Made by a program: the position numbers and the translations under genes. Positions 22,652-42,896 of a DNA stretch of 56,641 bases are shown in pieces. The stretch comes from Neglectibacter sp. X58 (GTDB lineage: Bacteria; Bacillota; Clostridia; Oscillospirales; Acutalibacteraceae): assembly GCF_009936035.1 (NCBI RefSeq), contig NZ_QWEO01000014.1, forward strand, positions 1 through 56,641, in the 5' to 3' direction. Position 1 is the first letter of the stretch; the number at the start of each line of letters is the position of its first letter. Below the pieces are notes generated by a model. That model ran no database searches and was not told the origin of the DNA. It was given only the letters and a program-made list of their open reading frames with translations.

Positions 22652-23707
22652 CTATGCCAGCCGCTTGGACATCACCTCATAGTGGGTGCAGTAAACCAAA
22701 GCGGTTTCCTTGGTTATCCGCCCTTCCCGGCAAAGCTTCAGCAGGCTGCCGTCCATGGTACACATGCCGTCGGTAGCGCCGGACTGGAGAACAGATTCCA
22801 ACTGGTGCAGCTTATCCTCCCGGATCATATTCTGGATGGCGTTGGTGCTCTTCATAATCTCAAAAACCGGAATCAGCCCGCCGTCCACGCTGGGCACCAA
22901 CTGCTGGCACACCACGCCTTTGAGAAGCTGGGAAAGCTGGATTTTCACCTGTTGCTGCTGGTTTGCCGGGAACACGTCGATAATGCGGGTGATGGTGTGG
23001 GCCACGCTGCTGGTATGTAGGGTGCTGAACAGCAAAAGCCCTGTTTCCGTAGCGGTGATGGCGGCGGATACGGTGTCGTAATCCCGCATTTCTCCCAGCA
23101 AAATCACGTCCGGGCTTTCCCGCAGGGCAGAGCGCAGCGCCGCCGGATAGCCGGGGGTGTCGATAGAGATTTCCCGCTGGGTGACAATAGCCTTTTCATG
23201 GCGGTAAATATACTCAATGGGATCCTCCATGGTGATGATGTGGCAGTCACGGCCCTGGTTAATGCGCTGAATCATGCAGGCAATGGTGGTGGATTTCCCT
23301 GTGCCCACCGCCCCGGTAACCAGCACCAGCCCTTTCTGGTTCTCCGCCAGGGACAGCACCTCCTCCGGGATGCCCAAAGCCGCCGGATCCGGCAGGCCGA
23401 ACTGAATAAGCCGTATCACAGCCGCCAGCGTGCCCCGCTGCCGGAACACATTCACCCGGAAGCGCCCCAGGCCCCCAATGGCAAAAGAGAAGTCATCGTC
23501 CTCACCCCGGCAGAGGTGGGTGTCCTCCCGCTTGGCAACGGTGTAAATCTGCTCCACAAACCGCTGGGTGTCCGCAGGCTTGCAGAAGCCCTCCCCCCAG
23601 CGCTCCTGGTGCCCCTTTATTTTCAAGGTAATGGGCAGGCCCGCCACCAGAAAGATGTCTGACGCCTGCTCGTTACACGCCCTCTCTAAAAGCTCCTGTA
23701 TGTCCAT
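22652..23707 (-). CDS. pilT: PilT-like twitching-motility ATPase
   Basis: 351 residues from the ATG at 23707 (GGAGGAAAGG upstream). PilT is the hexameric ATPase that retracts type IV pili. Motifs: N-terminal domain start DIQELLERACNEQASDIFLV, Walker A GAVGTGKSTT near residue 134, Asp box (TMEDPIEYIY), Walker B VILLGEMRDYDT, His box TLHTSSVAHTITRI. The C-terminal LLKGVVCQQLVPSVDGG is PilT/PilU-like. The expected AIRNLIRE box appears as AIQNMIREDKLHQLESVLQS. It is the only traffic ATPase in the window: no PilB assembly ATPase is next to it. It is separated from the pseudopilin genes upstream by 410 bases of repeats, so it may have its own promoter. Confidence 0.88.
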   Translation of the reverse strand: MDIQELLERACNEQASDIFLVAGLPITLKIKGHQERWGEGFCKPADTQRFVEQIYTVAKREDTHLCRGEDDDFSFAIGGLGRFRVNVFRQRGTLAAVIRLIQFGLPDPAALGIPEEVLSLAENQKGLVLVTGAVGTGKSTTIACMIQRINQGRDCHIITMEDPIEYIYRHEKAIVTQREISIDTPGYPAALRSALRESPDVILLGEMRDYDTVSAAITATETGLLLFSTLHTSSVAHTITRIIDVFPANQQQQVKIQLSQLLKGVVCQQLVPSVDGGLIPVFEIMKSTNAIQNMIREDKLHQLESVLQSGATDGMCTMDGSLLKLCREGRITKETALVYCTHYEVMSKRLA

Positions 23708-23762
23708 AGTGTTTATCCTTTCCTCCTCCAACTCTTTGAGATCCTCCACAGGGCAAAAAGAA

Positions 23763-23901
23763 TGGTATAATAACCTCACAGGTTATTATACCATAAGCGC
23801 AAAGCGCGTTGGTACTGCCCGTCGCCCGTCTGACCGAAGGGAAGAACTGGGCGGGGCAATTTGAAAATCAAGTATAATAACCGCTCTGCGGTTATTATAC
23901 C
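23763..23901 (-). repeat. REPIN-like repeat A, complete copy
   Basis: Both ends are hairpins made of TGGTATAATAACC and its complement: TCACA loop on the left, GCTCTGC loop on the right. The 139-bp element thus has mirrored hairpin termini, the layout of a REPIN or MITE. The interior (GTCTGACCGAAGGGAAGAAC, TGGGCGGGGCAATTTG) matches 10641-10733 in the opposite direction. No coding capacity. Confidence 0.75.
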
Positions 23902-24117
23902 ATCTGCCTGCCTTTTTGTAAATACGCTCAAAATCATGGGAGTGGCTGAAACACAGAGTTTTAAATGGAATTTAACAAATGCAAGAAATTAGTTTTAGGA
24001 TCAACCCCTTTTTTAAAAGGGGTTGTGGGGTGTGGGGCAAAGCCCCATGGACTTGCGCCGTAGATATAAAATGCATGGTTCAGACACTCCCTAAATCATG
24101 GAGATTCCGCGCCAGCC
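23902..24117. repeat. Repeat-rich intergenic region holding repeat D (23999-24040) and repeat B (24054-24096)
   Basis: GATCAACCCCTTTTTT, AAAAGGGGTTGTGGGG and TGTGGGGCAA form copy 2 of repeat D, whose core CCCCTTTT/AAAAGGGG is a perfect hairpin. TGCGCCGTAGATATAAA and TTCAGACACTCCC form copy 2 of repeat B. No gene. This region lies just downstream of the last pseudopilin gene. Confidence 0.5.
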
Positions 24118-24591
24118 TCATTCTCCCGCCCACAGGCCGCCAATCTCCTCCGGCGCCTGCCACTCCCGGGAAAACTGCCAGCAGACCACTGTAAAGCCTT
24201 TCCCCTCATGATCCGCCGCATCCGCAAAGTCCAGCCCAATCCGCAGCGTCTGGCTGTCATGGCTCAGTTCTTTCCAATAAACCCCGTTTTCGTCCTTCTC
24301 CATCCCCAGCGCAGACAAGGCTTCCTGCGTAAATCCATAGATTTTATATGATACACCGCCTGTTACCTTTGTCACAAACTCTTTGCCAGCCGCCTCTGCC
24401 GCTTCCTGCAAAAATGCCTGGCCCTCTGCCTCCAGCTCATACCGCTGCTGGGTAGAGGCCGCCAGCTTCTGCGCCATAGCCAGATCCGCCCGGGCAGTGG
24501 AAAAGGTGAGCAGGCCCAGCACTGTCATGCAGATGGCCACCACCGTGAGCAGCAGGGCCAGCGGCCCTAAACGGACAGGTATATGCTTCAT
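24118..24591 (-). CDS. Pseudopilin-like membrane protein 4
   Basis: 157 residues. Short basic start, one N-terminal helix (LGPLALLLTVVAICMTVLGLLTFSTA), then an extracytoplasmic domain with an alpha spine (AMAQKLAASTQQRYELEAEG) and beta sheet. This shape is that of minor pilins, though no clear prepilin-peptidase G-F site is seen. It overlaps the preceding gene by four bases (ATGA), so it is translated with it. I do not recognise a named family. It is probably a subunit of the type IV pilus or type II-like structure encoded with GspF and PilT. Confidence 0.6.
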   Translation of the reverse strand: MKHIPVRLGPLALLLTVVAICMTVLGLLTFSTARADLAMAQKLAASTQQRYELEAEGQAFLQEAAEAAGKEFVTKVTGGVSYKIYGFTQEALSALGMEKDENGVYWKELSHDSQTLRIGLDFADAADHEGKGFTVVCWQFSREWQAPEEIGGLWAGE

Positions 24592-25022
24592 GCCCCGTCA
24601 CCCCCTCTATAGGCCCCGGTGCGCAGGATGTACACAGGCTCTGTCCCGTTCTGCCAGTATACGGCAATTTCGCTTTCCACCAGCCTGCCCTCCTCCTGCC
24701 AGGACACATCCACACAGAAATCCCCGTCCCAGCGGGGCTGCATATCCCTGCTGTACCAGGCCCGCACGCCGCCGTCAGCCTCCTGCTGGGCATTGTCCCC
24801 CTGGTTCAAAAGGGCCAGCAGCTCCTGGGGGCTTTGGGCCGCCCCCACCAGCTCGGCGGCGTTTTCCGCCAGACACACCGCCCGGGTGAGCACCTGGGCT
24901 TGCCCGCTCTCCTCTTTGGCAAAGGCGAAAATCCGGGTGAGGGTGAGTATAACGCCCAGGAACACCAGGATGAGCACCAGCAGCTCAATATAAAAAGCTG
25001 TTATCCCCTGTTTACGATTCAT
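24588..25022 (-). CDS. Pseudopilin-like protein 3
   Basis: 144 residues from the ATG at 25022. The N-terminus MNRKQGITAFYIELLVLILV resembles a class III/type IV prepilin: a short basic leader, a Gly before the hydrophobic stretch, and a Glu (YIE) near position 5 of the mature helix, where pilins carry Glu5. The rest is a small beta domain (DVSWQEEGRLVESEIAVYWQ). It overlaps the upstream gene slightly. It is likely a minor pilin needing a prepilin peptidase encoded elsewhere. Confidence 0.6.
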   Translation of the reverse strand: MNRKQGITAFYIELLVLILVFLGVILTLTRIFAFAKEESGQAQVLTRAVCLAENAAELVGAAQSPQELLALLNQGDNAQQEADGGVRAWYSRDMQPRWDGDFCVDVSWQEEGRLVESEIAVYWQNGTEPVYILRTGAYRGGDGA

Positions 25023-25500
25023 TCCCACACCTCAAAACAAGGCCGCTGCGCAGGCGCAGGGGCACCTCCCCCCCGTCTGTCACCACGTAGGCCAGCCCGT
25101 CCCTTTCCTGAATCTCAAAAAGCGCCGTCTCTCCCAGCACCTGGGCATCCTCCGGCTGCAAAGGCCCGTCCACAGGGCCATAGTCCTCCAAAAGCTGCCC
25201 CTCCCACTGGTAGATGCGCAGGGCATAGCCGCTGTCTCCGTCCGCAATGGTCAAAAGCGCCCCGTTCAGCCCGTCCTGCTCTGTGCAGGCTTCCCAGGAC
25301 AGCGCCCCTGCCCTGTCGTTTGCTTTCAGGCAGGTGGAAAGATAGCTTACCAAAGCCCGGGTGCGGTTGTTCTCCCCCTGGCCCTCCACTGTTTCCCGGT
25401 AGGTGGCGGCCCCAAAGGTGACCAGCAGGAAAAATCCCGCCAGGAACAGTCCGGCTATGCCCAGGGTGAAAAACCCCTGGGAAAAGCTTCCCCTTTTCAC
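25012..25500 (-). CDS. DUF4860-like pseudopilin protein 2
   Basis: 162 residues from a GTG at 25500. Starts with basic residues, then GFFTLGIAGLFLAGFFLLVT, a membrane helix. The ectodomain (LVSYLSTCLKANDRAGALSW, TIADGDSGYALRIYQWEGQL, GLVLRCGNE) fits DUF4860, a family found next to type II secretion F genes in Clostridia. It has two Cys in the N-terminal half that might pair. It is co-transcribed with the two genes that follow. Confidence 0.65.
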   Translation of the reverse strand: MKRGSFSQGFFTLGIAGLFLAGFFLLVTFGAATYRETVEGQGENNRTRALVSYLSTCLKANDRAGALSWEACTEQDGLNGALLTIADGDSGYALRIYQWEGQLLEDYGPVDGPLQPEDAQVLGETALFEIQERDGLAYVVTDGGEVPLRLRSGLVLRCGNES

Positions 25501-25626
25501 ATGTACCAGCTCCCTTCCGGCCTGTTTTTGAAAGATGACAAATGATTACAAAAGATTACAAGTAGTTTACAAAGCAGCAGGTTTTTGCCAAATTTTCCCA
25601 TGTTTAACAGTTTGTTCATCATTCTA
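25501..25626 (-). other. AT-rich gap inside the pseudopilin cluster
   Basis: 126 bases with three GATTACAA-like repeats (25545-25570). A frame of about 40 codons from an ATG near 25619 (MMNKLLNMGKFGKNLLLC) exists but has no recognisable feature. It may be an internal promoter region for the last three genes. Confidence 0.3.
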
Positions 25627-25968
25627 CTACGGAATTAAACCCGTTTCCTGCCTGGGGCGGGGCACCACCGTCACCTCCGGGGGCAGGTTTACGGCGAACA
25701 CATCGTACACCACGTAAAAGTCCTCCCGGTTTATCTGCAAGCCATAATTTTCCTCCAAATGTTCCAGGGTGGGAGGATAGGCCCCCTCCACCGCATAACA
25801 CTGCATGGCGCTTTGCCGCACAGCGTTTTTCACAGCCTGCGCCCCTTCTTCCTCCATCTCCTGGCGGGAAAGCCCCCTTCCCTGCCAGAAAACCAGCGCC
25901 AGAACTGCTGCCAGGGCAATCCCGCACAGTATAAGGGGCCAGCGCCGCCTTTTTTTATCTATGTACAT
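25627..25968 (-). CDS. Pseudopilin-like protein 1
   Basis: 113 residues. Basic start KKRRRWP, one helix (LILCGIALAAVLALVFW), then a helix AVKNAVRQSAMQCYAVEGAYPPTLEHLEENYG and a short beta tail with IPP-like prolines. The AVEG-YPPTLE stretch is typical of GspG/PilE-like (pseudo)pilins, where the disordered loop follows the long helix. It starts 10 bases after the GspF gene. No prepilin cleavage site is evident, so it may be an anchored assembly protein. Confidence 0.6.
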   Translation of the reverse strand: MYIDKKRRRWPLILCGIALAAVLALVFWQGRGLSRQEMEEEGAQAVKNAVRQSAMQCYAVEGAYPPTLEHLEENYGLQINREDFYVVYDVFAVNLPPEVTVVPRPRQETGLIP

Positions 25969-25978
25969 AGCCCGCCCC

Positions 25979-27022
25979 CTAGCCGATGGAGTTCATAATG
26001 CCCAGCAGGGGCAGCATAACGCTTAACAGGGAGATGCCCACTGTCACCAGCAGCACGCCGGAAAGCAGGGGATCCACCACGCCCACCAGGCGGTCTGTCC
26101 GGGCGCCGCACTGCTCCTCTAAAAGCTCTGCCAGCCGCCACAGCACCGGCTCCAGGCTGCCGCTGCGCTCTCCTGCCAGCAGCATCCGCCCGTAAACCGG
26201 CTGGAAAAGCTGTTCCTCAAAAGCAGACTGGGCAATGCTGTGGCCCTCCTCCATCCGGAGGATGCACTTTTTCACCTTTTCCTCTACAGGCTGGCACTCC
26301 GTCATTTTCAGGCTCTCCATCACGGCGATGTCCTGCACCTCGCCGCTGGCCAGGAAGGTGGCCAAAGCGCAGGTGAAACGGTACATGCCCAGCTCTTGCA
26401 GGATGTCCCTCGTAACAGGGATTTTATAGAGCAGCCCCTCTATTAAGGGGCGCTTTTTGCTGTTCCACAGGGTAAGCCCTATAAGCAGGGCCGCCGCCAG
26501 CAGCACCATCACCCCTAAAGCCGCCCAGCAGAAGCCATAGGCCCACTGTATATAGCTGTAGGCGGAATGGGCCAGGCTGCCTGTAAGCCTGTTATACACC
26601 TGGGTGAAGGCAGGCAGCACCATGGTGAGCATCAGCACCAGCACCACAATAATCAGCACCAGCATGGCGGCAGGATAGGTTACGGCGCTGCGCAGCTTTT
26701 CCGACATGGTTTTCTGCCCGGCGTAATACCGGCTTAAACGGAAGAGCACATCCTCCAGCCTGCCGGAGGACTCTCCCGCCGCCACCATTTTGCAGGCATA
26801 GGCCGGGAAAATCCCGGTTTTTTCCAGCGCGCCGGAAAGGCTTCCCCCCTGCTCCAGTTCTCCCTGCACCAGGGCAAGGGCCTGTTCCAGAGGGCCGGGC
26901 TTTTCCTTTTCCTGGCGCAAAAGCTGCACAGCCTCCTCTGTCTGGATGCCCGCCTGCAGCATCATCGCCATGCTTTCGCAAAAAGCGCTGATTCCCAGCG
27001 CGTCCAGCTTTCTTTTTCCCAT
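25979..27022 (-). CDS. Type II secretion/type IV pilus inner-membrane platform protein (GspF/PilC)
   Basis: 347 residues after a GAAGGAGG site. Two GspF domains: residues about 10-130 (CESMAMMLQAGIQTEEAVQL, MVAAGESSGRLEDVLFRLSR) and about 215-335 (FTCALATFLASGEVQDIAVM, MLLAGERSGSLEPVLWRLAE), each followed by membrane helices. It is the platform on which the assembly ATPase works. No GspE/PilB gene is adjacent, which is unusual. It heads the pseudopilin gene run and follows the transglutaminase gene by 29 bases. Confidence 0.88.
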   Translation of the reverse strand: MGKRKLDALGISAFCESMAMMLQAGIQTEEAVQLLRQEKEKPGPLEQALALVQGELEQGGSLSGALEKTGIFPAYACKMVAAGESSGRLEDVLFRLSRYYAGQKTMSEKLRSAVTYPAAMLVLIIVVLVLMLTMVLPAFTQVYNRLTGSLAHSAYSYIQWAYGFCWAALGVMVLLAAALLIGLTLWNSKKRPLIEGLLYKIPVTRDILQELGMYRFTCALATFLASGEVQDIAVMESLKMTECQPVEEKVKKCILRMEEGHSIAQSAFEEQLFQPVYGRMLLAGERSGSLEPVLWRLAELLEEQCGARTDRLVGVVDPLLSGVLLVTVGISLLSVMLPLLGIMNSIG

Positions 27023-27051
27023 AACTTCCTCCTTCGCCTGGCAGGGGCCTG

Positions 27052-28014
27052 TCAGTAGTAATAAACGTCTGTATAGTTTGTTCCGTCCCCCACAAACCCG
27101 CTTTCCTGGCTGTTTGCGGAGAAGGTGGGATCCAGCCGGTTCCAGGTGTTGGATTCCACCTCATACTGTACGGAAACCCACCCGCTTTCCTGGGTGTAGA
27201 ACATATTCCAGGCGTGGTATAAATCGTCGGGCTGCACATAGCCGAACACCATTTTCGTGGGGATTCCCTGGCTGCGCAGCATGGCCGCCGCAAGGCTGGC
27301 ATAGTCAAAGCAAATGCCCGTCCCGGTTTCCAGGGTTTTGTCCGGATCCGGCAGATATGTTTTCTCCACCGTTTTCGCCAGCTCCTTGTCATAGGTGACG
27401 CTTTCGCAGATGTAGCCCAGCACCGCGTCCACCACGCCTAAAGCGTCTGCCTGCCCGGAGGCAATTTCCCCTGCCTTTTTCACACAGGCGGAATTTTCCC
27501 CATAGGGCACATACTGGCTGGGCCGCAGGAAGGGCTGGAAGGGATCCTGTAGGGCCACAGAAGCGCTTGCCTCATAGAGCTTGGCGTATTTGCCCTCTGT
27601 CACCTCCTGCATCACCCGGAAGGTATAGTCCCCGTCCCCGCTTTGCAGGGGCAGGATGGCAGGCGTGCCGTCAGAGCCGATGTTGTACGTGTATGTCGTT
27701 TCCCCTTGCAGCACCTGGAATTTCAGCCTGCCTTCCCCTTGGGCGGAAACCCCCACATACCCCTGGGCTGTGGCGGAAAAATCCAGCAGCACCCCGCTTT
27801 CCCCCTGGGCCTGTTCGCTGTGGAAAGCGGAATCTGCAAAAGCCGGGGCCTGGTAAGGGGTGAAATCCCCTGGGGCGCTTTCCTCCGGGCGGGAATCAGC
27901 CTCCTGGGAAGCCGGTTCCTCTGGCAGCTCCGGATCCGTGCCGGCCTGGGTGACGCACCCCCACAGGTTCAGCAGCAAAAGGAGGGCCAAAAGCCCTGCA
28001 ATCTTCCGTCCCAT
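27052..28014 (-). CDS. Transglutaminase-like lipoprotein
   Basis: 320 residues. Lipoprotein signal MGRKIAGLLALLLLLNLWGC with Cys20 as likely lipid site. The C-terminal half is a transglutaminase/protease core fold: Cys in GTGICFDYASLAAAMLRSQG, His in YHAWNMFYTQESGW, Asp in WNRLDPTFS, so all three catalytic residues are present. Such enzymes crosslink or cleave proteins outside the cell. Sitting between a class B sortase (6-base gap) and the GspF gene, it may modify or crosslink surface fibres. This role is inference. Confidence 0.8.
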   Translation of the reverse strand: MGRKIAGLLALLLLLNLWGCVTQAGTDPELPEEPASQEADSRPEESAPGDFTPYQAPAFADSAFHSEQAQGESGVLLDFSATAQGYVGVSAQGEGRLKFQVLQGETTYTYNIGSDGTPAILPLQSGDGDYTFRVMQEVTEGKYAKLYEASASVALQDPFQPFLRPSQYVPYGENSACVKKAGEIASGQADALGVVDAVLGYICESVTYDKELAKTVEKTYLPDPDKTLETGTGICFDYASLAAAMLRSQGIPTKMVFGYVQPDDLYHAWNMFYTQESGWVSVQYEVESNTWNRLDPTFSANSQESGFVGDGTNYTDVYYY

Positions 28015-28020
28015 GGAACG

Positions 28021-28821
28021 CTACCACCCCCGTCCGTGAGGGCCTACAGGCTCCAGTTTGCCATGGACCACATAGCGGGCCTCCTCGAAATCGTAAGCGC
28101 AGGTGGAAAGCACCACATAGCGCCCGTTGGGATCCATTTCGCCCACCCGGGCGTCAAAGTCCGACAGCGCCAGGTTTTCCTCCAGATACTGGGTAAACTC
28201 CGGCATGGGCGCCCGGAAAATGGAGTATACATCCCCATAGGCAGACACTGTGTGGCCGCTGAACAGCACCACCCGATAGTCTGTGGTGGGGGTGAGCAGC
28301 CACATAACAGGGTGCTCTTCATAATAGCTCTGCTCCCGCCAAAGCTCCAGCCCCGCGAACATAGATCCGTCGTTCATGTTGTGCCCATACAGCACTGTGT
28401 TGGAGTCTGCAAAGTCCGGGGCTGTCTGGGCGTCTGCAAAGATGGCCCCGCAGTTGTCCTCCAGCTTTTCATAGCTGTAATGCAGGTAATATTCGTTGTC
28501 GTCCCCCTGCACTACCGGGTAGTTGATTTTAGTACCCTCGCAGTAAATCCATCCCACCACCTGGGGGTTTATCCCCTGAAGCTTTTCAAAATCCACTGTA
28601 AACGGGGTTAGGGGGCCTTCCCCATCTGTCTGGGACTGGCCCCCGCTGCCTGTTTTAGCGCTATCCGCCTGTTTTCCCTGTGTTGTAAATTCCTCCGCGG
28701 CCTTGGCATATACCTGCTGGCTTTTGGCATACCGCTGCTGGGCCACTAACACAGCCCCGCCCGAGCCTGCAAACACCAGCAGCAGAGCCGCCACCGCAAT
28801 CCATTTCAGCTTTCTCCCCAT
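28021..28821 (-). CDS. srtB: Class B sortase
   Basis: 266 residues from the ATG at 28821. An N-terminal membrane helix (WIAVAALLLVFAGSGGAVLV) and a linker lead to the sortase domain: NPQVVGWIYCEGTKINYPVV, then YYLHYSYEKLEDNCGAIFAD, His in NTVLYGHNMNDGSMF, Cys in VVLSTCAYDFEEARYVVHGK with Arg 7 residues after the Tyr. The catalytic His-Cys-Arg set is complete. Class B enzymes anchor dedicated substrates. The probable substrate here is the VKTGD protein at 30533-31294. The start is preceded by repeat C instead of a normal ribosome site. Confidence 0.88.
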   Translation of the reverse strand: MGRKLKWIAVAALLLVFAGSGGAVLVAQQRYAKSQQVYAKAAEEFTTQGKQADSAKTGSGGQSQTDGEGPLTPFTVDFEKLQGINPQVVGWIYCEGTKINYPVVQGDDNEYYLHYSYEKLEDNCGAIFADAQTAPDFADSNTVLYGHNMNDGSMFAGLELWREQSYYEEHPVMWLLTPTTDYRVVLFSGHTVSAYGDVYSIFRAPMPEFTQYLEENLALSDFDARVGEMDPNGRYVVLSTCAYDFEEARYVVHGKLEPVGPHGRGW

Positions 28822-28899
28822 ACATCGCCATGCGATACAGGTTTCGCACAAAAGGCCATTTAAAAAACAGCCCCTTGTGCCCGGTACCGTTCCTTTCTT
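28822..28899 (-). repeat. Leader repeat C, copy 3 (upstream of srtB)
   Basis: On minus: GAAAGGAACGGTACCGGG, then GCACAAGGGGC...GGCCTTTTGTGC, a hairpin, ending TATCGCATGGCGATGTATGG at the srtB start. Hairpin ends GCACAA/TTGTGC differ from copy 4 (GCGCAAA/TTTGCGC) on both arms, so pairing is kept. Confidence 0.65.
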
Positions 28900-28985: not shown

Positions 28986-29005
28986 TTTTTCACGCCGAAC
29001 GCTCT

Positions 29006-29527
29006 CTATCGGTAATCCTCCGCTTCGCCGCTCTCCCTGGCCCGCTGGCGTATCCTGCCTCCCAGTATGTTCAGCATGGCCCCGCAGGCGGCAAAGCATA
29101 TCACGTATATTTTGCCCACTGTGGTGGAAAACAGCACCAGCATAGCGCCCAGGTAAGGGAAATGCCGCTCTACCCGGCCTATCAGCTCCCTGTAGGCTAC
29201 CGGGTCGATGTCCTTTTGCTCATTGGCATCCCCTTTGGTGACAAGCTGGCCCTCGATTATATTGTTTTCCAGCACCCGGTGTGCCACCACTGCGTCCTCC
29301 CGCCAAAAGGCGATGATTTCCCCTTCCCCCACTTCCTCGGCCGGGACGGGGGAGACATATATCACACTGCCCACAGGGATTTCCGGCTCCATGCTGCCGG
29401 TGACAATGTGGTAAATCTCATAGCCCAGCAGGCGCGGAAGCGTGGCGGCAAGGCTTAAGCCTATCACCAGCACCAATATCAGCGTGCCCAGCACATTGCA
29501 CAGCAGGGCAATTATTTTTTTACTCAT
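29006..29527 (-). CDS. sipW: SipW/ER-type signal peptidase I
   Basis: 173 residues with an N-terminal helix (NVLGTLILVLVIGLSLAATL) and a C-terminal helix. Catalytic Ser45 lies in VTGSMEPEIPVGSVIYV and the second catalytic residue is His83 in DAVVAHRVL. Ser plus His instead of Ser plus Lys marks the SipW/archaeal-ER type. In Bacillus SipW matures TasA and TapA. Here TasA-like proteins lie two genes upstream in the same operon, so they are the natural substrates. It overlaps the upstream gene by four bases. Confidence 0.88.
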   Translation of the reverse strand: MSKKIIALLCNVLGTLILVLVIGLSLAATLPRLLGYEIYHIVTGSMEPEIPVGSVIYVSPVPAEEVGEGEIIAFWREDAVVAHRVLENNIIEGQLVTKGDANEQKDIDPVAYRELIGRVERHFPYLGAMLVLFSTTVGKIYVICFAACGAMLNILGGRIRQRARESGEAEDYR

Positions 29528-33683: not shown

Positions 33684-33725
33684 GGGCAAATTCCTCCTTT
33701 GGGATTGAAAGGCTATAGGAAGCCG

Positions 33726-34592: not shown

Positions 34593-34615
34593 ATGCAAGG
34601 CTCTCCTTACTGATG

Positions 34616-34648: not shown

Positions 34649-34700
34649 ACGAATCAGTTATCTGTGTAATTTGGTGCGCTCTTTTTCAAGAGCACTGGGC

Positions 34701-36428
34701 TTAGCCCTTGGAACCCATGCGCTTCTTTACAAAGAGCAGGATGCCAGCGCCAACCACCAGCGCAGCGCCAACAGCGTAGAAAATGGTGGTGCCGATGCCG
34801 CCAGTGCTGGGCAGCAGGGTGCCGGTCTTGTTGACAACCTGAATAGCAGCGCCGTCGCCAGCTACAGGAGCGTTATCGTTCAGCTTGTCAGCGTCCTCGT
34901 CTGTAACATCCTCGTTGCCAATATACTTCTTTGTGACTGTGCAGGTGATAGTATGGGTAGCCGGATCCTTTTCACCCGCTGTTACAGTAATGAGAATATC
35001 AGCGGATCTGTTGTAACCGCCTTCAGGCACAGTAGTCTCGCTCAGGATATAGTTGCCAGGGCCAAGGCCGTTAAAGACAAACTTGCCTTCTGTCCCAGTT
35101 GTAATCTCAGTGCCTTTGCCTGCCTCATCATCAACTTTATCATAGAACATGCCTTTACCGTCAACTTCTTTAAAGAGTATAGGCTTACCCTTTACCCACT
35201 TACTGTTCTCGTCCTGCTCTGCAGTGTACAGTGTGAAGCCAGCACCTGCAAGCAGGTTATCATCACTAATTGCATCCTTATACTTGGTGCCGTCAATTTT
35301 CAGGGTGAATACATAACTCTCGTCCGGCGTGGTGCTGCCTATTCCCTCGTCATCAGGGTTCCTGGTGAAGTCAAGAGAGCCTGTGTTCTTGTTGGCATTA
35401 TTATCATTAAGCCCAGTGCCATTTTCATCTGTGCCACTGCCCATTACGATGGCGTTCTCGTTCAGATATGCGTCATAGGTGAGGACAACTTTTACATACT
35501 CAAGCCCAGTTTCCTCGTCTGTAACTGTAGGCCAATCCTTCTCGCCAATGAAATCAAACAGGTTTTCAATTTTTACAGTGAAGGAAACGCCGGCCTTGCT
35601 TTCAGGCTCCTCCTCCAATGCATTGTACGTATTATCTGTATACTGGAACTTATAGCCATCTGCAGGAATTTCACTGCCATTTACAACTTGAACGTTTATA
35701 TTCCCAGCATAGGTCAGGCCATCGGACATAGTATCCTTGAAACGGATCATGTACTTGTCAAAGCTGGAAAGCTGGGCTACAGGAATTTTAGCCTCCAGTT
35801 TAAACTGGAAGACTTCGCCAATGGTGTGGCCTGCGTCGTCAGTGAATTCGTCCGGGTTCACAGTCTGCACAGTCTTATCCATAGTGGTGTCAGTTGTCTT
35901 GGTCTTTACGCTGGTGTCGCCAATAATCTGAACCATCAAAGCGGAAAGCTTATCGCCTTCAGGAGCAGGATCATTTTCACGTCCATTGTCAACAATCAGA
36001 TAATAGCCAGTTTCTACCTCAACTGTTAAAGAACTGCCATCTTCTGCCGGGCCCATGGTCTGATAAGCATCACCCCGGAGGGCTCTGAGCAGGTCGTTGG
36101 CAAAGCCTTCGCCAGCACCCAAAATGGCATCTGTAACGCTGCTGTCAACTGCAGTGCCAACAGACTGCAGAGCATCGGCATCAAAGCCGCCAAAGTTTAC
36201 GCCATACTTAATGTTGGCAAGAGCGTCTTTCCCATCTTTTTCTCCAACATCACCAGTGAAAATCTGGTAAACGCTGTAGGTGTGGCCCGGGGTGGGATTC
36301 TCCAGGGTTAAGGTCTGCGTTTTAGCTGCCGCAACATTTTCACCCTCTGTTGCCATCGCCGGGATGGCCATAGCAAAGCACAGGGCCAGCGCCAGGGCAA
36401 GTGCTAAGAACTTTTTCATAGATTTCAT
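34701..36428 (-). CDS. Major pilin (isopeptide-forming, LPSTG-anchored)
   Basis: 575 residues. Signal peptide KKFLALALALALCFAMAIPAMA. The N-terminal pilin domain has GHTYSVYQIFTGDV and LTVEVETGYYLIVDN. A fimbrial isopeptide domain spans about 215-330 (DEFTDDAGHTIGEVFQFKLE). A SpaA/Cna-B domain follows with LAGAGFTLYT and the E-box PGNYILSETTVPEGGY (the Glu that helps the Lys-Asn isopeptide bond). The end is LLPSTGGIG plus helix and KKRMGSKG, a complete sorting signal. Candidate pilin-motif lysines (TTMDKTVQTVNP) are near residue 205. The gene composition is less GC-rich than its neighbours, as is common for surface antigens under diversifying selection. Confidence 0.92.
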   Translation of the reverse strand: MKSMKKFLALALALALCFAMAIPAMATEGENVAAAKTQTLTLENPTPGHTYSVYQIFTGDVGEKDGKDALANIKYGVNFGGFDADALQSVGTAVDSSVTDAILGAGEGFANDLLRALRGDAYQTMGPAEDGSSLTVEVETGYYLIVDNGRENDPAPEGDKLSALMVQIIGDTSVKTKTTDTTMDKTVQTVNPDEFTDDAGHTIGEVFQFKLEAKIPVAQLSSFDKYMIRFKDTMSDGLTYAGNINVQVVNGSEIPADGYKFQYTDNTYNALEEEPESKAGVSFTVKIENLFDFIGEKDWPTVTDEETGLEYVKVVLTYDAYLNENAIVMGSGTDENGTGLNDNNANKNTGSLDFTRNPDDEGIGSTTPDESYVFTLKIDGTKYKDAISDDNLLAGAGFTLYTAEQDENSKWVKGKPILFKEVDGKGMFYDKVDDEAGKGTEITTGTEGKFVFNGLGPGNYILSETTVPEGGYNRSADILITVTAGEKDPATHTITCTVTKKYIGNEDVTDEDADKLNDNAPVAGDGAAIQVVNKTGTLLPSTGGIGTTIFYAVGAALVVGAGILLFVKKRMGSKG

Positions 36429-36475
36429 ACGCTCATTTCCTTTCTTATTTTTATATAATAGGTTTGCATTGGTTT

Positions 36476-39400
36476 TTAAGACTTTTGCACACCCTCCTTC
36501 CCCCGCCTCCGAGAAGTTTTATATACCAGGGCCAGCCCTGCCGCGCTTAACAGCGCCGCGCCTGCCCAAATATATCCCTGTATGCCTCCGCCGCCCGTTT
36601 TCGGCAGCTCGTAAGCATAAACGGTATTCACATAGGTGACAACCTGGATTTTGTCATCTGTTTCCCCAAGGTGTACCTGGCCCGACATAGTTCTGTCAGT
36701 GTCTCTGCCAAAGTCTGTCGGCTCGCCCTGCACCATCTGCCCGATTTCCTTGTTATACTGCGTTATATAGGCAGAGCAGAGGTAATCGTTATCCGGGTCT
36801 TTTTCCTTTATCTTATATCCCGTAACATTGCCGTTATCATCCTTCACCTCTTCCAGCCCGCCGGAAACCTGCTCCCGGTTTTCTGTAACCGTATACTTAG
36901 TTCCATCCGGCAGCATGTTGATGATGATATACTCGCCGTTTTTCAGGGTGAAGTCCGCGCCGCTATGCAGCACCATGTCTTTGTCCAGTATGCCGCCGCC
37001 GTCTACAACAGGCTGGCCGTCGGCGTTATACTTGGCATAGGAGTAGTCGTCCGGCAGCCTGCCGCCGTCGGCTGTAGTCAGCTTTAAGTTGAAGATGAAT
37101 TCCTCATCATGGCTGGGAAGCTGGCTGATGTCAAAGCCGCCAGAGGACAGGTTCCCTCCAACTGTCAGCCCCTCCACCTTCTTCTCTATCTTCAACTGCG
37201 TGTAGGCTTCCTCCACCGTTGTGGTGCCGCCATGGACAGAGGGCAGTGTAAACTGCATCCAGCAGGTAGAGCCGGAAGCGCCGCGCTCGGTGTAGTAGAA
37301 ATCCAGTTTGTAGCCGCCGGATTGCCCCTGCTCAATGTAGTTCCACAGGTCTACATACTCGCCCACTGAACGGTGTACGCCGCCGATATCGCAAATCAAC
37401 TGGGAATTCCCACTTGGGTCGGTCAGGAACACCCACATGTCATCATCGCCAAAGAACAGATACTCCAGCGGGCCAGCATAATTTGCCGTCAGGTCAAATT
37501 CTATCGTGCTATGCATGGCAAAATAGCTGTTGTGGGCTATACCGTTGTCACTGGTTGGCATCTTAGTCCAGTCACCTATTTCTCTAAAATACCGGATGTT
37601 TTCCGGGTTGCCAAATAGGCCGTCACCATCTGGATTGGGGAAACTATCCATTGGCCAGAAATGGTTCGTCCAGATCTTTTTCTTGTTTTGTATTCCATCA
37701 TATTGGCCGGGATGGCTGAATCTGTCCAGCCCGGTAAGAGCCGCACCATCTACGCTTACGGAAGTGAGCGTGTAGGTATCACCTAAACGGTTAAACGTCA
37801 GCCCGCCATTCTCAAACACACGTTTTCCCGTAAATGTGCCTGTGCTGAACAGGTCAGGGACTTCAATACCTTCGGCAAATTGCAGCACACCATTTTGTAT
37901 ACCTGTGACAAGGCCGAATGTACAACCTTCATAGCTGGCTGTATTAAACTTATTGAGATAGTTGCCGTTCCAGCTTAAAGTTCCATAATCGGTGCCGGCA
38001 TTATTATTGCCGAAAGCAAAGGGGACTCCTGTCTTTTTAAAATAGGCGTTTATGCCGCTTGACTTTGTATCCAGTATTTTCTTATCCCCAGGCCCGGAGC
38101 TGATATCATAGTCATAAAAAACTCCGTTAACTGTTTCCGGCCCATCAGTAGGCTCATATACAAGGCGCAGGATAGATTCATGGGCAATATGGATGTAGAC
38201 ATCCTCGCCATATTTCCCCGCCGCATCTCTTCTGTTGGTAAAATGCAGCTTATTCTCGCAATTCGCTACCAGTTTGTCTTCATCCGGAACAATGTCGCGG
38301 CACGATTCTCCATAAATATCCCAATACACCGGCTTGCTCCGCTCTTCCTCGTCCATTATATCCTTCGCGCTGTCTTTCAGCACCCAAATCTGCTTCAAAA
38401 TGTAAGAATCAGACTTTTTGCCTGTGTCCGGGTCTACCAGCGCGTCAATATAGTGGATGTTGGGCTTTGTGAAATAGGTACAGACATCATCCGGATCGTC
38501 TGTTTTGCCCTTTGCCTTATAGATTTCCGTCAGCTTTTCCGTTGACTTGACCTTTCCATATTTATCCGCGCTTGTCTCAATCTGCAAATTGGTCAGTGTC
38601 TGTATCGGGGAATTAACGGGTAATTTCCGCGTGCCACCGTTGCTTGCCGCGCTGGTGTCAATTACAGACAAGCTGTTTGCGACATCATTGGCAAGCCTCC
38701 TGTCCACCCTGTCCAGATAAGCGTAATACTCCACTGCATAGTGGGGGTTTACAGAGGTGTTTGTGGTCAGGGCAATGGTGTTCCGGCTTACGGCCCGGTT
38801 TGCGTTCTCAGGCTCTTCGGCGGTTGTGGGCATGGGCACCCCCTGCTTATGCACAACCATATTCATAATGACTTCCTCGCTGTCCTGGGTCACCTCCCGG
38901 GAATCCAGCATACAAATATCCGATTCTTCGCTGACAGCAAGGCGCTGCTCCTCCACCATCCGGGGCGCATTCTGGATGTCCTCTTCCGCTTTTGCCGCGG
39001 CAACGGCCTCGGCGCTGGGGTAGATAACCTTTTCGCCCACAGCCTCTTCGCCGTTTCCGGCAGGCGCCAGCATGGAAAGGATTACGCCTACATCACCTTC
39101 CGCCTCGCTTGCCACGTCCTCCGGCGTCAGAGCCTTGATCTGCTCCTCCAGCTCCTGGGTAGATCGAACCTCCACTGTCACCCGGCAGGCGGAGATATCC
39201 AGCTCCTGCCCGCCATAGCGCAGCTTATAAGACATAACCTCCAGAGGAGACAGGCCTGTTTCCTCCTGGGATTCGCTTTCATCCTTCCCCGCCTGCACAT
39301 AGTCGGCATAGGGCAGATAGGCCGGTTCGCCTGCCTGCACCTTTTCCACCACGAACTCCACCGGCTGCTCCAGATACAGCACCGAGTTTGCAGGCAGGAT

Positions 39401-41311
39401 GCCGCCTGTTGCTACGATAGCGCCGCCCAGCCGCAGCTTGGGCGCGGCCTCTGCGGGCTGGGAATCGGTTTCCGGCTGGGAAACTGTCTCATCCGCCAAC
39501 TGGCTGGAGGAACTTTCCTCCTGGATCGGTTCCTCCGGGCTTTCCGCAGCAGAGGGCAGCGGATCCCCTTCATCCTTTGTATCTGCTGCCTGGCTTTCCG
39601 TTTCTTCCTCTCCCCATTTCAGGGCAGGATCCGCCTGGGAGGAAACTTCCGGCTCCTCCGGGCTTTCCGGCTCCGCCTGCTCCGGCAGGGTGGCGTCACC
39701 CTCTACATGGAACACCAGGTTAAAGAGGGAATCTGTGTCATAGGAGAAGGACTGGGACACGTGAAGCACATTGGCGTCCTCATCCTCCTGCTCCTGCACG
39801 CCGTTCACCTGATCGGCGTCAACCTTCACCGGGGCTTTGCTGCCAAAGCCCAGCAGCGTCTCCTCCTCTATCTGGGTGACAGCCCCGCCGCCTTCTCCCA
39901 GGGTTACAGGAAGCTGCTGTGCCCGTTCCCTGTCCAGCACCATGCCAGGCACTGTCTCCAGGGTGTCATCCTCCGGGGCCTCCGCAAAGGCAACGGCGCA
40001 CACCTTGCCGCCCTCGGCGGAAACGCCCTCACCGAAAAATTCCGCTTTCAGGGAAACCGGCCCGTCAAAGGGCACCTGCTCCCCGTTTTCATCCTGCAAG
40101 CCCACTTGCAGCAGGGCGTGGAGGGCATACTCCTCATCCTCCATAGCCTGTTTCAGCTTGGCCTGGCGCTGGGCAAGCTGCTGGGGATCTTCCAAGCGCT
40201 CCACCACCAGATGGGTTCCCTCCGGCAATTCCCCTTCCACTTTCACCTTTAAGGTGGCGTCCTCATAGGCAGCTTCTTTCTGGGGCGCCTTGTCCGGCTG
40301 AGGCTCTGCCTCCTCCGGCTGGCTGCTGGGGGTGTCCTCCCCGCTTTCCAAGCCGCTGCTCTCTACATCACTGCTGGCAAGGCCGCTGCTTTCCAGCGCG
40401 CTGCTGGAGGCAGCGCTTTCCTCCAGGGCGCTGCTCTGTTCCCCGCCGCTTTCCGGCAGGCTTTCCACTGTGCTTTCTTCCTGCTCCGGCTTCCGGAAGC
40501 ATTCGTTGCCATGCTCATGCTTCTCTGTTTGCAGCATACCGCAGGTAAGCACAAGCACCTGATCTGTCTCCCCGCCTTCCGGCAGGCTTTCCACCTTAGA
40601 AAGCGTCCCGTCCTCGCCCAGCACGGAATAGCATTCCTTTGTATGGGCGTGCAGGCTGATTTCCGGCTTGCCGCAGGTGAGGATCAGCTCTGTCTCTTTA
40701 CAGTCGTCTGTATGGATGTGGGAGCCAGCCCCAGCCTCCTGGCCGCAGACAAGCTCTTTCTCAGAGCAGTCTGGCCCGTGGCTGTGTCCAACCCCTTCTT
40801 CCAGGCCGCAGACCAGCTCCTGGTTTTCATCATAGCAGGCAGCGCCATGGGCATGGGCCGGGGACTCCTCCAACTGGCAGGTTAAGGCTTCCTCATAGCA
40901 GTCATCCAAATGCACGTGGCCCACTGTCTGCTCTTGCCCGCAGATCATCACCTCGCGCTTTTCATAGCAGGCTTCCACGTGGTGATGCTCCCGGATTTCC
41001 GGCAGGGCGCACACAAGGGCCGCTTCCTTATCGTAACAGTTATCATTATGTTCATGGACTACATAGTTTGCGTAGCCGCAGGCAAGCTTTTCCTCTCCGT
41101 CAAAGCACGCCTCAGAGTGCTGGTGGACAGGCACCGCGCAGTCCAGCACCATGTCCCGCCGGGCCATTGCCTGCCCCTGCTGGATCATAAAATAAAAGGT
41201 GCCCACTGTTACAACCAGCGCAAGGCCCGCTACCACCGGAATCCATCGGCGAACCCGCCGCCGCTTTCCCAGCATTTTTGCCGCCTGCTTGTCAAATACC
41301 GCGTTTGCCAT
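36476..41311 (-). CDS. Giant LPKTG adhesin with Cys/His repeats and fibro-slime domain
   Basis: 1611 residues from the ATG at 41311 (GAAAGGATGGAG upstream; an ATG nine bases earlier lacks spacing). N-terminal basic head and one helix (RRWIPVVAGLALVVTVGTFYF), then nine repeats of the form Cys-x(5-9)-His-x-His-x(4)-Cys over residues about 55-285, for example CGQEQTVGHVHLDDCY. A Ser/Glu/Pro linker, beta-rich modules, a second acidic linker near 560-640, and a large central region follow. Residues about 1220-1370 are a fibro-slime/PA14-like domain (YLFFGDDDMWVFLTDPSGNS, DIGGVHRSV). A Cna-B-like module precedes the sorting signal ELPKTGGGG, helix and RRRGKEG. It lies directly upstream of the major pilin, so it is likely the tip adhesin. 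Confidence 0.85.
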   Translation of the reverse strand: MANAVFDKQAAKMLGKRRRVRRWIPVVAGLALVVTVGTFYFMIQQGQAMARRDMVLDCAVPVHQHSEACFDGEEKLACGYANYVVHEHNDNCYDKEAALVCALPEIREHHHVEACYEKREVMICGQEQTVGHVHLDDCYEEALTCQLEESPAHAHGAACYDENQELVCGLEEGVGHSHGPDCSEKELVCGQEAGAGSHIHTDDCKETELILTCGKPEISLHAHTKECYSVLGEDGTLSKVESLPEGGETDQVLVLTCGMLQTEKHEHGNECFRKPEQEESTVESLPESGGEQSSALEESAASSSALESSGLASSDVESSGLESGEDTPSSQPEEAEPQPDKAPQKEAAYEDATLKVKVEGELPEGTHLVVERLEDPQQLAQRQAKLKQAMEDEEYALHALLQVGLQDENGEQVPFDGPVSLKAEFFGEGVSAEGGKVCAVAFAEAPEDDTLETVPGMVLDRERAQQLPVTLGEGGGAVTQIEEETLLGFGSKAPVKVDADQVNGVQEQEDEDANVLHVSQSFSYDTDSLFNLVFHVEGDATLPEQAEPESPEEPEVSSQADPALKWGEEETESQAADTKDEGDPLPSAAESPEEPIQEESSSSQLADETVSQPETDSQPAEAAPKLRLGGAIVATGGILPANSVLYLEQPVEFVVEKVQAGEPAYLPYADYVQAGKDESESQEETGLSPLEVMSYKLRYGGQELDISACRVTVEVRSTQELEEQIKALTPEDVASEAEGDVGVILSMLAPAGNGEEAVGEKVIYPSAEAVAAAKAEEDIQNAPRMVEEQRLAVSEESDICMLDSREVTQDSEEVIMNMVVHKQGVPMPTTAEEPENANRAVSRNTIALTTNTSVNPHYAVEYYAYLDRVDRRLANDVANSLSVIDTSAASNGGTRKLPVNSPIQTLTNLQIETSADKYGKVKSTEKLTEIYKAKGKTDDPDDVCTYFTKPNIHYIDALVDPDTGKKSDSYILKQIWVLKDSAKDIMDEEERSKPVYWDIYGESCRDIVPDEDKLVANCENKLHFTNRRDAAGKYGEDVYIHIAHESILRLVYEPTDGPETVNGVFYDYDISSGPGDKKILDTKSSGINAYFKKTGVPFAFGNNNAGTDYGTLSWNGNYLNKFNTASYEGCTFGLVTGIQNGVLQFAEGIEVPDLFSTGTFTGKRVFENGGLTFNRLGDTYTLTSVSVDGAALTGLDRFSHPGQYDGIQNKKKIWTNHFWPMDSFPNPDGDGLFGNPENIRYFREIGDWTKMPTSDNGIAHNSYFAMHSTIEFDLTANYAGPLEYLFFGDDDMWVFLTDPSGNSQLICDIGGVHRSVGEYVDLWNYIEQGQSGGYKLDFYYTERGASGSTCWMQFTLPSVHGGTTTVEEAYTQLKIEKKVEGLTVGGNLSSGGFDISQLPSHDEEFIFNLKLTTADGGRLPDDYSYAKYNADGQPVVDGGGILDKDMVLHSGADFTLKNGEYIIINMLPDGTKYTVTENREQVSGGLEEVKDDNGNVTGYKIKEKDPDNDYLCSAYITQYNKEIGQMVQGEPTDFGRDTDRTMSGQVHLGETDDKIQVVTYVNTVYAYELPKTGGGGIQGYIWAGAALLSAAGLALVYKTSRRRGKEGVQKS

Positions 41312-41348
41312 GCTCTCCATCCTTTCGTGCTTTCAATACAGGGCACTT

Positions 41349-41510
41349 AGAACCTGTATTCACAACCTGTAACCACCGTCTAAACGGCCTTTTTGAAGCC
41401 ACTCTATGTTAAATTTTCTTGCAAGGCGACAGCCTTGCTGCGAACATTTGCCTTGATTGGCTTCAAAAATTCCCGCTCATCCGGCAATTTCGATTATGAA
41501 TACAGGTTCT
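41349..41510. mobile_element. MITE-like element with 14-bp terminal inverted repeats
   Basis: AGAACCTGTATTCA at 41349-41362 and TGAATACAGGTTCT at 41497-41510 are exact reverse complements; TTA flanks both. The 162-bp body has an inner hairpin (CAAGGC-GACA-GCCTTG type, near 41423-41437) like the element at 15673-15838. The right end touches the stop codon of the signal peptidase gene. A solo copy of one end lies at 20927. Confidence 0.72.
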
Positions 41511-42148
41511 TACTTTACCGCCCCCAGCCCGCTTAAGGGCCATACCCGGAACAAAAGCTTTCCTACAATCAGTTCCTTGTTTACACAGCCCACCGCTGTG
41601 TTCCGGCTGTCAATGGAGGTTTCCCTGTGATCCCCCATGACAAAAATGCGTTCCTCCGGCACCTGGTAAGGCAGGGTGATGTTGCACTCCCCCAAGGCCT
41701 TGCCGGAAACATAAGGCTCCTCCAGCTCCTCACCGTTTACAAACACATTGCCGTCCTTATCTATATCCACCCAGTCGCCGGTTGTGGCGATAACCCGCTT
41801 CACCAGCAGGGTGTTGTTGTAATAAAAGGCGATAACATCCCCGGTGGCGAAGTCTGAGGTGTTCATGGTCACCACAATGTCCCCGTCCATCAGGGTGTTG
41901 GTCATAGACGTGCCGCTTATGCGCAGCACCGGGAACACCAGCACCGCCACAATCACCGCGGCGGCGGCCGCCACCATCAGGGCAAAGACTGTGGTGCGCA
42001 GCACCCGGCTGTGCTCCTTCTTGCTCAGTTCCTTTTCAAGCTCTGCCTCCACCTGGGCAACAGTGGGCAGATCCACCTCTTTTTCCTTTTCTTCCTTCTT
42101 TTCTTCCTTCTTTTCTTTCTTTTCCCTCAAGCGCACCCCTCGCTTCAA
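41510..42148 (-). CDS. lepB: Signal peptidase I (LepB type) in the pilus locus
   Basis: 212 residues if started at the TTG at 42148; a GTG at 42136 or a TTG at 42130 is also possible. A very Lys/Glu-rich cytosolic head (residues 6-50) precedes the helix (TTVFALMVAAAAAVIVAVLV). Catalytic Ser is in ISGTSMTNTLMDGD and Lys in NNTLLVKRVIATTGD. VMGDHRETSIDSRN is box E. Ser-Lys chemistry makes it a normal bacterial type I enzyme, unlike the SipW-type one at 29006. It lies directly upstream of the adhesin gene and may be dedicated to the large pilus subunits. The final codon sits inside the end of a MITE. Confidence 0.9.
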   Translation of the reverse strand: MKRGVRLREKKEKKEEKKEEKEKEVDLPTVAQVEAELEKELSKKEHSRVLRTTVFALMVAAAAAVIVAVLVFPVLRISGTSMTNTLMDGDIVVTMNTSDFATGDVIAFYYNNTLLVKRVIATTGDWVDIDKDGNVFVNGEELEEPYVSGKALGECNITLPYQVPEERIFVMGDHRETSIDSRNTAVGCVNKELIVGKLLFRVWPLSGLGAVK

Positions 42149-42335
42149 CTGATTTATGAAGTACCCGTCCGGCCCTGAGTGGCCTGCTGCCTTTCAGGGA
42201 CTGCCGTGGGGCCGCGCTCCGTTATAGCGTATGCGGTTCAAATAAGGATAAGGCGCCTTTTGAACCGGCCTTCCCCCGTTTTCCACCGCGTTTACTAACC
42301 CGCTTTATCCACCATACAGACACATCCGGTTTGAT
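42149..42335 (-). other. Intergenic region upstream of the pilus-locus signal peptidase
   Basis: No gene. CGGTTCAAA (42234-42242) pairs with TTTGAACCG (42259-42267) around an AAGGCG-containing loop, the same loop sequence as in hairpins near 9142 and 10488. Confidence 0.35.
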
Positions 42336-42896
42336 TCAGGAGCCTTCCTCCACCCGCTGGGAGCGCAGAAGCATCCTGCTCTGGGGCTGTAATTTCCCCT
42401 GTACCACCTGTACCACTTCCAGCACCCGGGGCGCCTGCTGCTCCCTGCCCCCTCTAACAGGCGGCGGGGCCAAAGGCATTCCCTGGCCCTGGGCGTGGCG
42501 GGGCTTCCTCCCAGCGGAAGGCGGCTCCTCCCGCTGCTGGGGGCGGGGCGGCGGGCTTGCGTATACCTGCCGCCGGGGGGCCTCCTGCAAAACAGGCGGG
42601 GGCAGAGGCGCAGCCTGGCCTCTTCCCCGCACCTGGGCAAAATCCATGTCAAAATCTTCCTCCGGCGCAAAGCCCTGCCTTTGCCGCTGGGCCTGCAGGC
42701 TTTCCCGAAGCTGTAAAATCTGGGCGTCCTTATCATTCAGGCGTTCCTTCAGGCGCTCATACCCTTCCTCCAGCTTGCTCATTTCCTCCTGCACCTCGGC
42801 AAGCTTGGCCTTCGCCTTTTCCGCTTCCCTGCCTTGGGCCAGCAAAAGCTGCAAAAGCTCACGCCTGCCCAGCTTATGCAATTCCTTGTCAGTCAA
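42336..42896 (-). CDS. Coiled-coil protein with Pro/Gln-rich tail
   Basis: I place the start at the TTG at 42896, eight or nine bases after AAAGGGGGAG; it gives 186 residues (LTDKELHKLGRRELLQLLLA). An ATG at 42917 is the alternative. Residues about 15-75 are a continuous coiled coil (LAEVQEEMSKLEEGYERLKE, RLNDKDAQILQLRESLQAQR). The rest is rich in Pro, Arg and Gln (PPPRPQQREE). There is no signal peptide. The same gene type (a short KELxKLGRRELLxLL head plus coiled coil) sits beside pilus loci in related bacteria as far as I remember. It may act as a cytosolic scaffold. Function unknown. Confidence 0.65.
   Translation of the reverse strand: MTDKELHKLGRRELLQLLLAQGREAEKAKAKLAEVQEEMSKLEEGYERLKERLNDKDAQILQLRESLQAQRQRQGFAPEEDFDMDFAQVRGRGQAAPLPPPVLQEAPRRQVYASPPPRPQQREEPPSAGRKPRHAQGQGMPLAPPPVRGGREQQAPRVLEVVQVVQGKLQPQSRMLLRSQRVEEGS

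Follow-up and report, generated by a model that had tools for sequence, protein, structure and literature searches.

The window considered here is the whole 56,641 bp stretch of Neglectibacter sp. X58 contig NZ_QWEO01000014.1 (contig C32 of a 3.36 Mb genome that is 99.99% complete). It contains a run of 19 minus-strand genes that extends from position 42917 down to 22652 and mixes surface-fibre, sortase, transglutaminase-like and type IV pilus-like genes. A preliminary description of this DNA had reported such a run, and analysis of open reading frames (ORFs) together with profile searches confirms it; the class C sortase (SrtC), class B sortase (SrtB), SipW-type signal peptidase, Transglut_core protein (TG), GspF and PilT each score above their family cut-offs, and the first gene of the run, coding for a coiled-coil-like protein (coil; 42336–42917), had been missed. 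The genes are assigned to two modules: module A contains the pilin, sortase and SipW fibre genes, and module B consists of TG-GspF-pp1-pp3-pp4-pp5-PilT, with TG as its first gene and the hinge between the two (the labels pil2, TasA1, TasA2, pp1, pp3, pp4 and pp5 are coined here). The tiny gaps and overlaps reported earlier hold for 12 of the 18 junctions, which do not exceed 50 bp, and pil2 overlaps TasA1 as VKTGD, MucBP and SipW overlap in series, although six junctions are wider (coil–LepB 187, LepB–adhesin 189, SpaH–SrtC 102, SipW–SrtB 184, pp1–pp3 126 and pp5–PilT 368 bp).

Module A includes the components of a sortase-dependent SpaA-type pilus, namely a class C sortase with its catalytic triad and a backbone pilin with both an LPXTG motif and an isopeptide domain. 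SrtC (33726–34598) matches NF033745 with 265 bits (cut-off 160) and has the catalytic Cys-His-Arg in 12 of 12 orthologs from the genus genomes that carry the island. The SpaH/RrgB-like backbone pilin (34701–36428; LPSTG) contains a TIGR04226 RrgB-type isopeptide domain (44.2 bits, cut-off 30) and has SpaA and Gram_pos_anchor matches above cut-off, while the SpaH subfamily model NF033902 remains below it (66 versus 95 bits); LPxTG is kept in all 12 orthologs. The adjacent 1614-residue giant LPKTG adhesin (36476–41320) has a fibro-slime domain and is a predicted tip or ancillary pilin, with matches to TIGR02148 (50.6 bits, cut-off 45), DUF7601 (54.7, cut-off 27) and the TIGR01167 LPXTG anchor (19.9, cut-off 15.9). 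Next to it is a LepB-type (Ser-Lys) signal peptidase I gene (41510–42148; TIGR02227 117 bits, PF10502 113 bits). The coil protein, with an N-terminus around T-D-K-E-L-H-K-L-G-R-R-E, has no Pfam match reaching cut-off, and look-alike ORFs recognized by eye lie ahead of LepB in relatives.

Downstream of SrtC lies pil2 (32586–33689), a secreted pilin-like protein lacking a sorting signal and scoring 24.4 bits against DUF5979 (cut-off 25). A stretch around N-x-F forms the C-terminus of its orthologs, and a fuller form, N-x-F/Y...W-x-W, closes the pil2 proteins of loci L141, L211 and L210; the window copy reads W-H-L. The same form is carried C-terminally by giant proteins near SipW genes in genomes G446 and G406. 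The C-terminal N-x-F...W-x-W of pil2 in several loci is found in two 1150-residue proteins encoded near SipW genes (L215 14082–17555 and L216 13243–16686). The SipW-type (Ser-His) signal peptidase (29006–29527) scores 86.5 bits against TIGR02228, the SipW/ER-type family (cut-off 51.85), and 72 bits against the Bacillus SipW equivalog model (cut-off 190); its Ser and His are present in all 11 aligned genus orthologs, and the twelfth genome was judged by eye. The two putative fibre proteins had been called TasA/camelysin-like, a label with weaker backing: only TasA2 (31310–32080; 12-ortholog alignment) scores at all against the BsaA model (24 bits where the cut-off is 60), it has no Pfam match, and its predicted model, beta-rich with a mean pLDDT of 76, gave no clear fold match. 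TasA1 (32083–32589) is a small protein with no Pfam family found, assigned from its conserved place and a signal-peptide type judged by eye. Both are no more than candidate homologues of Bacillus TasA.

A class B sortase accompanied by a nearby C-terminal sorting motif completes module A. SrtB (28021–28851, start possibly 28821) matches TIGR03064 with 160.6 bits (cut-off 153.75) and has its Cys-His-Arg in all 12 genus orthologs. The VKTGD protein (30533–31294) has V[KRT]TGD ahead of a hydrophobic C-terminal segment and a basic tail in the same 12, and SrtB probably cuts at this motif. The MucBP-domain protein between VKTGD and SipW (29524–30543; PF06458 24.0 bits, cut-off 23) has a C-terminal hydrophobic anchor. 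From the domain layout, the VKTGD protein would be the substrate of SrtB, the MucBP protein a membrane base and the adhesin a tip.

Module B contains the PilT-family ATPase and GspF/PilC platform expected of a type IV pilus system, and four pilin-like proteins. The PilT-type ATPase (22652–23779, start possibly 23749) matches TIGR01420 with 393 bits (cut-off 319), and its best match in the PDB is PilT 2ewv (E 1.4e-95), with AIRNLIRE aligned to AIQNMIRE. GspF (25979–27022) has two PF00482 T2SSF stretches (140.8 bits, cut-off 25.2), and the best-scoring GspF-family model is that of type II secretion GspF, far below cut-off (176 versus 424 bits). Among the pilin-like proteins, pp1 (25627–25968) is classed as such from its position, from a C-Y-x-x-E-G-x-Y-P signature that we take to resemble GspG, and from a predicted pilin-like shape. 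The others are pilin-like by position: pp3 (25012–25500) is a DUF4860 protein (PF16152 30.2 bits, cut-off 25), and pp4 (24588–25028) and pp5 (24118–24591), both conserved in place, have respectively a hydrophobic helix opened by a Glu and an N-terminal hydrophobic helix. TG (27052–28014) is a transglutaminase-like lipoprotein (PF01841 79.6 bits, cut-off 23; lipobox judged by eye) whose Cys-His-Asp triad is invariant in 17 aligned sequences and present in 12 of 12 genus orthologs. Many proteins of the transglutaminase-like superfamily act as proteases or have no known activity. For TG, a crosslinking role is the least complicated guess, with proteolysis as a real alternative.

Several parts of a canonical type IV pilus were looked for and not found. 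No PilB is present in the 12 genus genomes carrying the island. The window's genome has one full-length T2SSE-family ATPase, the PilT-type protein, and no second one was found in it or in the one-contig genome G082. No PF01478 (A24) prepilin peptidase (PilD) scores above cut-off in these 12 genomes, in a search limited to that family and omitting PF06847 and others. A short A24-like ORF in G087 (L105 1423–1761; 22.6 bits, cut-off 26.5) may be a prepilin peptidase or a remnant. In the same search set the three genomes with a PilB-size ATPase (G006, G025 and G040) also have PilD, and G253 and G489, composite-carrying genomes outside the genus, do have PilB-size ATPases. The earlier label of pseudopilins draws on position, the pp1 signature and the predicted shape of pp1, and not on a prepilin cleavage motif: after five duplicate loci were dropped, the strict motif was found in 0 of 48, 0 of 69, 0 of 67 and 0 of 69 sequences of the four pp sets (0 of 253 in total) and a loose one in 2, 4, 3 and 0, in a scan that is imperfect in that it finds strict motifs in only two of five canonical control loci (no ORFs were called in L256).

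The order of the genes is strongly conserved in the genus. A search with SrtB gave matches in 25 of 29 genus genomes, with at least 45% identity in 12 including the window's own, and all 12 show a single order and a single strand for the genes that were called from SpaH through PilT. The preliminary description had named an order not conserved in relatives as one thing that would refute it; the order is kept from pilin to PilT in the window and 11 other genomes, so that the run is not a chance arrangement. The ORF caller missed pp1 in G088, G099 and G082, as well as pp5 and SipW in G082, of which only the G082 SipW was later read; the available sequence of G104 starts inside the pilin gene and that of G103 just ahead of it. 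Upstream of SpaH the order varies, being coil-LepB-adhesin in the window, G087 and G100, and a second LepB or none followed by adhesin-coil-LepB (coil by eye) in G095, G088, G089, G099, G097 and G082; some genus genomes have two LepB paralogs. Downstream, PPK2 follows in the window, G102 and G104 and one 341-residue gene in G088, G089 and G099, while the other six genomes have no common gene among the first two or three. These make eight contexts around a constant order, and the island therefore holds together while its surroundings change. TasA2 is present in exactly the 12 island genomes of the 29, and TG in 17, including all 12. Of the remaining TG carriers, G105 and G101 have a divergent TG next to module B. 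In G081 TG is present but neither GspF nor PilT is called within the 20 kb; the TG of G092 is on a contig of 6 kb, and only weak TG pieces are found in G085.

Outside the genus the modules recur both apart and together. The analysis also covered nine more genomes of the family that have TG; in three of them (G006, G040 and G022) no ORFs were called around TG, the codon model being unsuited. TG-GspF-pp-PilT is present without sortases in G065, G077 and G025 (pp1 not called in G065), regulator-TG-GspF runs up to a contig end in G038, and G054 has PilT only. In G051, where TG, pp1 and PilT are present, a distant SrtB-like gene follows PilT, and SipW/TasA1-like genes lie on the opposite side. A scan of named genomes confirmed 581 TG relatives, of which the best 80 were analysed. 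GspF or PilT is called in 75 of these 80 loci and both in 58; GspF is called in 74, mostly adjoining TG. At least one module A gene (above 60 bits) is present in 15, five of them duplicating genus genomes counted above, and none in 65, although in 13 of the 65 less than 2.5 kb of DNA lies upstream of TG, so that linkage cannot be judged there. By record title, which may be wrong for metagenome-assembled genomes (MAGs), the TG loci belong to Oscillospiraceae, Lachnospiraceae, Erysipelotrichaceae, Eubacterium and two Coriobacteria MAGs; on these titles module B is widespread across Clostridia and Erysipelotrichia, is present in two Coriobacteria MAGs, and mostly has no module A gene in view. In 35 of the best 80 loci a BTAD regulator is encoded one gene past the closest gene of module B, often with a 161-residue protein, and GGDEF/EAL proteins and an Hpt protein are present in 34 and 36 respectively; the regulator itself has a GGDEF-like stretch below cut-off. 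Members of this regulator family also lie beside SipW/TasA/SrtB-like genes in G168, G446, G406, L123 and L141. The regulator follows module B or TG in L147 and L259 as well.

Module A can likewise occur by itself. The TasA2 profile finds 12 of 394 order genomes, comprising the window's, G087 and G088, strong matches in G253, G465, G484 and G486, and five weak ones. Module A genes are present in G465, G484 and G486 without a PilT-family ATPase above cut-off (no PilT-family match in G465 and sub-cut-off pieces in G484 and G486). SrtB with no SrtC called is present in G465, and SrtC and SpaH with no SrtB called in G484 and G486; the latter two have no TG match and G465 a single 40-bit fragment. 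Sortase and SipW parts therefore occur together without the motor. In G253, a member of another family, module A ends in TG at the end of contig C29, and the end of contig C88 has a TG C-terminus next to GspF-pp1-pp3-pp4-pp5-PilT-regulator; the two contigs are not joined. Module A adjoins module B, with no SrtB called, in two loci titled Lachnospiraceae (L182 and L156) and in one titled Erysipelotrichaceae (L153; TG found by tblastn only). In L123, which has two TG copies, and L141, which ends at the regulator, TG and the regulator come after module A and neither GspF nor PilT is called in the locus. By coordinates only, each of these two genomes has one more TG on a different contig, no more than 4 kb from a PilT-family gene. 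TG beside module A alone keeps alive the idea that it crosslinks fibres.

Linkage of the two modules is clustered on a tree of TG sequences. The tree has 100 rows after removal of eight duplicate loci (L118, L119, L120, L122, L128, L146, L245 and L246), 23 of which were labelled by hand as linked to module A. The label includes partial cases (L121 and L188 with SrtB only, L147 with SrtB and with SipW on the other strand, and L085 with distant SrtB, SipW and TasA1-like genes), and L135 (SipW) and L196 (VKTGD) were labelled not linked despite a listed module A gene. The label changes 10 times compared with 20.9 in shuffles, none of 500 being as low, and five of the 10 changes are forced by supported branches; gains and losses of the link are indistinguishable. 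The modules thus appear to have met or parted several times, and this repeated change is the strongest sign that a functional link between them is likely. The earlier proposal that these parts work together as a composite is to that extent favoured by the association on the tree and by the conserved order, but as worded it does not fit module A lacking a PilT-family ATPase (G465, G484 and G486) or TG loci that mostly lack module A (65 of the best 80).

We propose that the locus is a modular envelope-assembly island, an interpretation for and against which we consider the evidence evenly balanced. Module A would be a cell-surface fibre system in which LepB and SrtC build an LPXTG pilus carrying the fibro-slime adhesin, SipW matures the small secreted fibre proteins TasA1 and TasA2, and SrtB attaches the VKTGD protein to the cell wall, the MucBP protein staying in the membrane, probably as a base. 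The C-terminal N-x-F...W-x-W stretch could, as a guess, be a docking signal that places pilins on SipW fibres. Module B would be a PilD-less, single-ATPase reduced machine of the type IV filament superfamily serving the fibre island, in which one PilT-type ATPase drives the GspF platform and this moves a short pseudopilus of pp1 (the major subunit) and pp3–pp5. With no prepilin peptidase, these subunits would keep their N-termini and no long pilus would be extruded. The TG lipoprotein would be a dedicated effector outside the membrane that modifies, most simply by crosslinking, fibre or wall proteins, presumably products of module A, and the modules would probably form one regulon. A bolder version would make module B a novel class of machine within the type IV filament superfamily, working with pilin-like subunits that stay uncleaved, one PilT-type motor and a dedicated TG effector; the enzyme, driven by the motor, would weld the sortase pili and SipW fibres of this island covalently into a single surface structure. 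This version strikes us as rather improbable.

The sortase pilus, SipW fibre and motor module could instead be independent surface systems that never touch and are packed in one island for common regulation, a reading that we doubt but take seriously. Each module is also found alone, six junctions exceed 100 bp, and module B occurs elsewhere with its own BTAD regulator and GGDEF/EAL neighbours. According to the available text of Obana et al. (PMC7395162), Clostridium perfringens has srtB adjacent to sipW-bsaA and its deletion leaves BsaA polymers unaltered, so that adjacency need not mean joint assembly. These observations favour independence. It fits poorly with modules that have joined or parted repeatedly on the TG tree, with an order strictly kept by 12 genus genomes amid changing flanks, with the overlaps of pil2 with TasA1 and of VKTGD, MucBP and SipW, and with the two genomes with TG beside module A while module B lies elsewhere.

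Two further alternatives concern module B alone. As a type II secretion-like machine with TG or module A proteins as cargo, it would have a pseudopilus that acts as a piston and not as an organelle; this overlaps with the proposed envelope-assembly island, differs in the role of the motor, and is in our judgment unlikely. It would suit the best GspF-family model being that of type II secretion, the frequent position of GspF beside TG, and the lack of PilB and of a PilD above cut-off in the genus, although the ATPase is PilT-type with the AIQNMIRE motif and not GspE-type, monoderms need no outer-membrane secretion, and a lipoprotein can leave by Sec alone. Module B as an ordinary type IV pilus locus, with prepilin peptidase, PilB and major pilin elsewhere or missed, seems very unlikely. 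Most of the genomes are drafts, the motif scan is imperfect, G087 has its sub-threshold A24-like ORF, and G253 and G489 have PilB-size ATPases; but the window's genome and the one-contig G082 have no second full-length T2SSE ATPase, A24 above cut-off is absent from all 12 genus genomes while present in G006, G025 and G040 where there is a PilB-size ATPase, and none of the 253 pp sequences has the strict motif.

Parts of the proposed envelope-assembly island resemble several known systems. In C. perfringens the sipW-bsaA operon likewise places a SipW peptidase and the BsaA polymer next to a class B sortase gene, although the available text mentions no SrtC pilus, TG, PilT or GspF for it; a type IV pilin mutant changes sipW-bsaA expression (PMC7395162). 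Sortase pilus islands encode pilins, sortase and signal peptidase together in an operon, and class B sortases act in pilus assembly in Streptococcus pyogenes (Spy0129, PMC3019223) and C. perfringens (VR-10B, PMC8088525), but the available text of these accounts reports no SipW-type fibre proteins, TG or pilus motor. The Bacillus TasA/CalY/TapA matrix fibres share the SipW-matured small secreted subunits but are described as sortase-independent, with no LPXTG pilus or motor mentioned in the text available (PMC13082335, PMC9674648, PMC10151520). Module B shares a PilT-type ATPase, GspF platform and pilin-like proteins with the type IV filament superfamily (type IV pili, type II secretion, Com and Tad), as far as the available text of its descriptions goes (PMC6668835, PMC3244431), and differs in the lack of PilB and of a prepilin peptidase above cut-off in the 12 genus genomes, in pilin-like proteins with no cleavage motif found, and in having a TG lipoprotein as a regular partner. 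Every enzyme family is already known, and no description of a SrtC-SipW-SrtB-TG-PilT island or of a TG-GspF-DUF4860-PilT module was found in the open-licence literature searched, in which the machine set and its recurrent pairing with sortase–SipW fibres are thus undescribed. If correct, the proposal would break two textbook expectations: a prepilin peptidase should be indispensable to type IV filament machines, and Gram-positive fibres should come either from sortases or from the SipW/TasA route, never from one island that also has a pilus motor. Recurrent joining of the modules predicts functional coupling, and with 581 TG relatives, of which 75 of the best 80, largely in digestive-tract MAGs, have GspF or PilT in view, common gut bacteria may hold an uncharacterised surface machine.

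The island is preceded by nusG, rplK and rplA in the window and G087 only. An rplJ-rplL pair is expected after these genes; in the window (42336–44659), as in G087, the pair is not called there and the island starts instead. A palindrome, GGTATAATAACC-loop-GGTTATTATACC, is present in three copies in the window (10642–10670, 23762–23794 and 23871–23901), the last two in the long pp5–PilT gap; these provide six half-sites (at most one mismatch) against 0.12 expected, and no exact half-site occurs in the fetched loci other than the window's own. A 19-bp repeat, AGAACCTGTATTCACAACC, is located at 20927–20945, 41349–41367 and 41492–41510, with two mismatches in the last copy. Its last two copies stand in inverted orientation some 160 bp from each other in the LepB–adhesin interval and look like a small inverted-repeat element.

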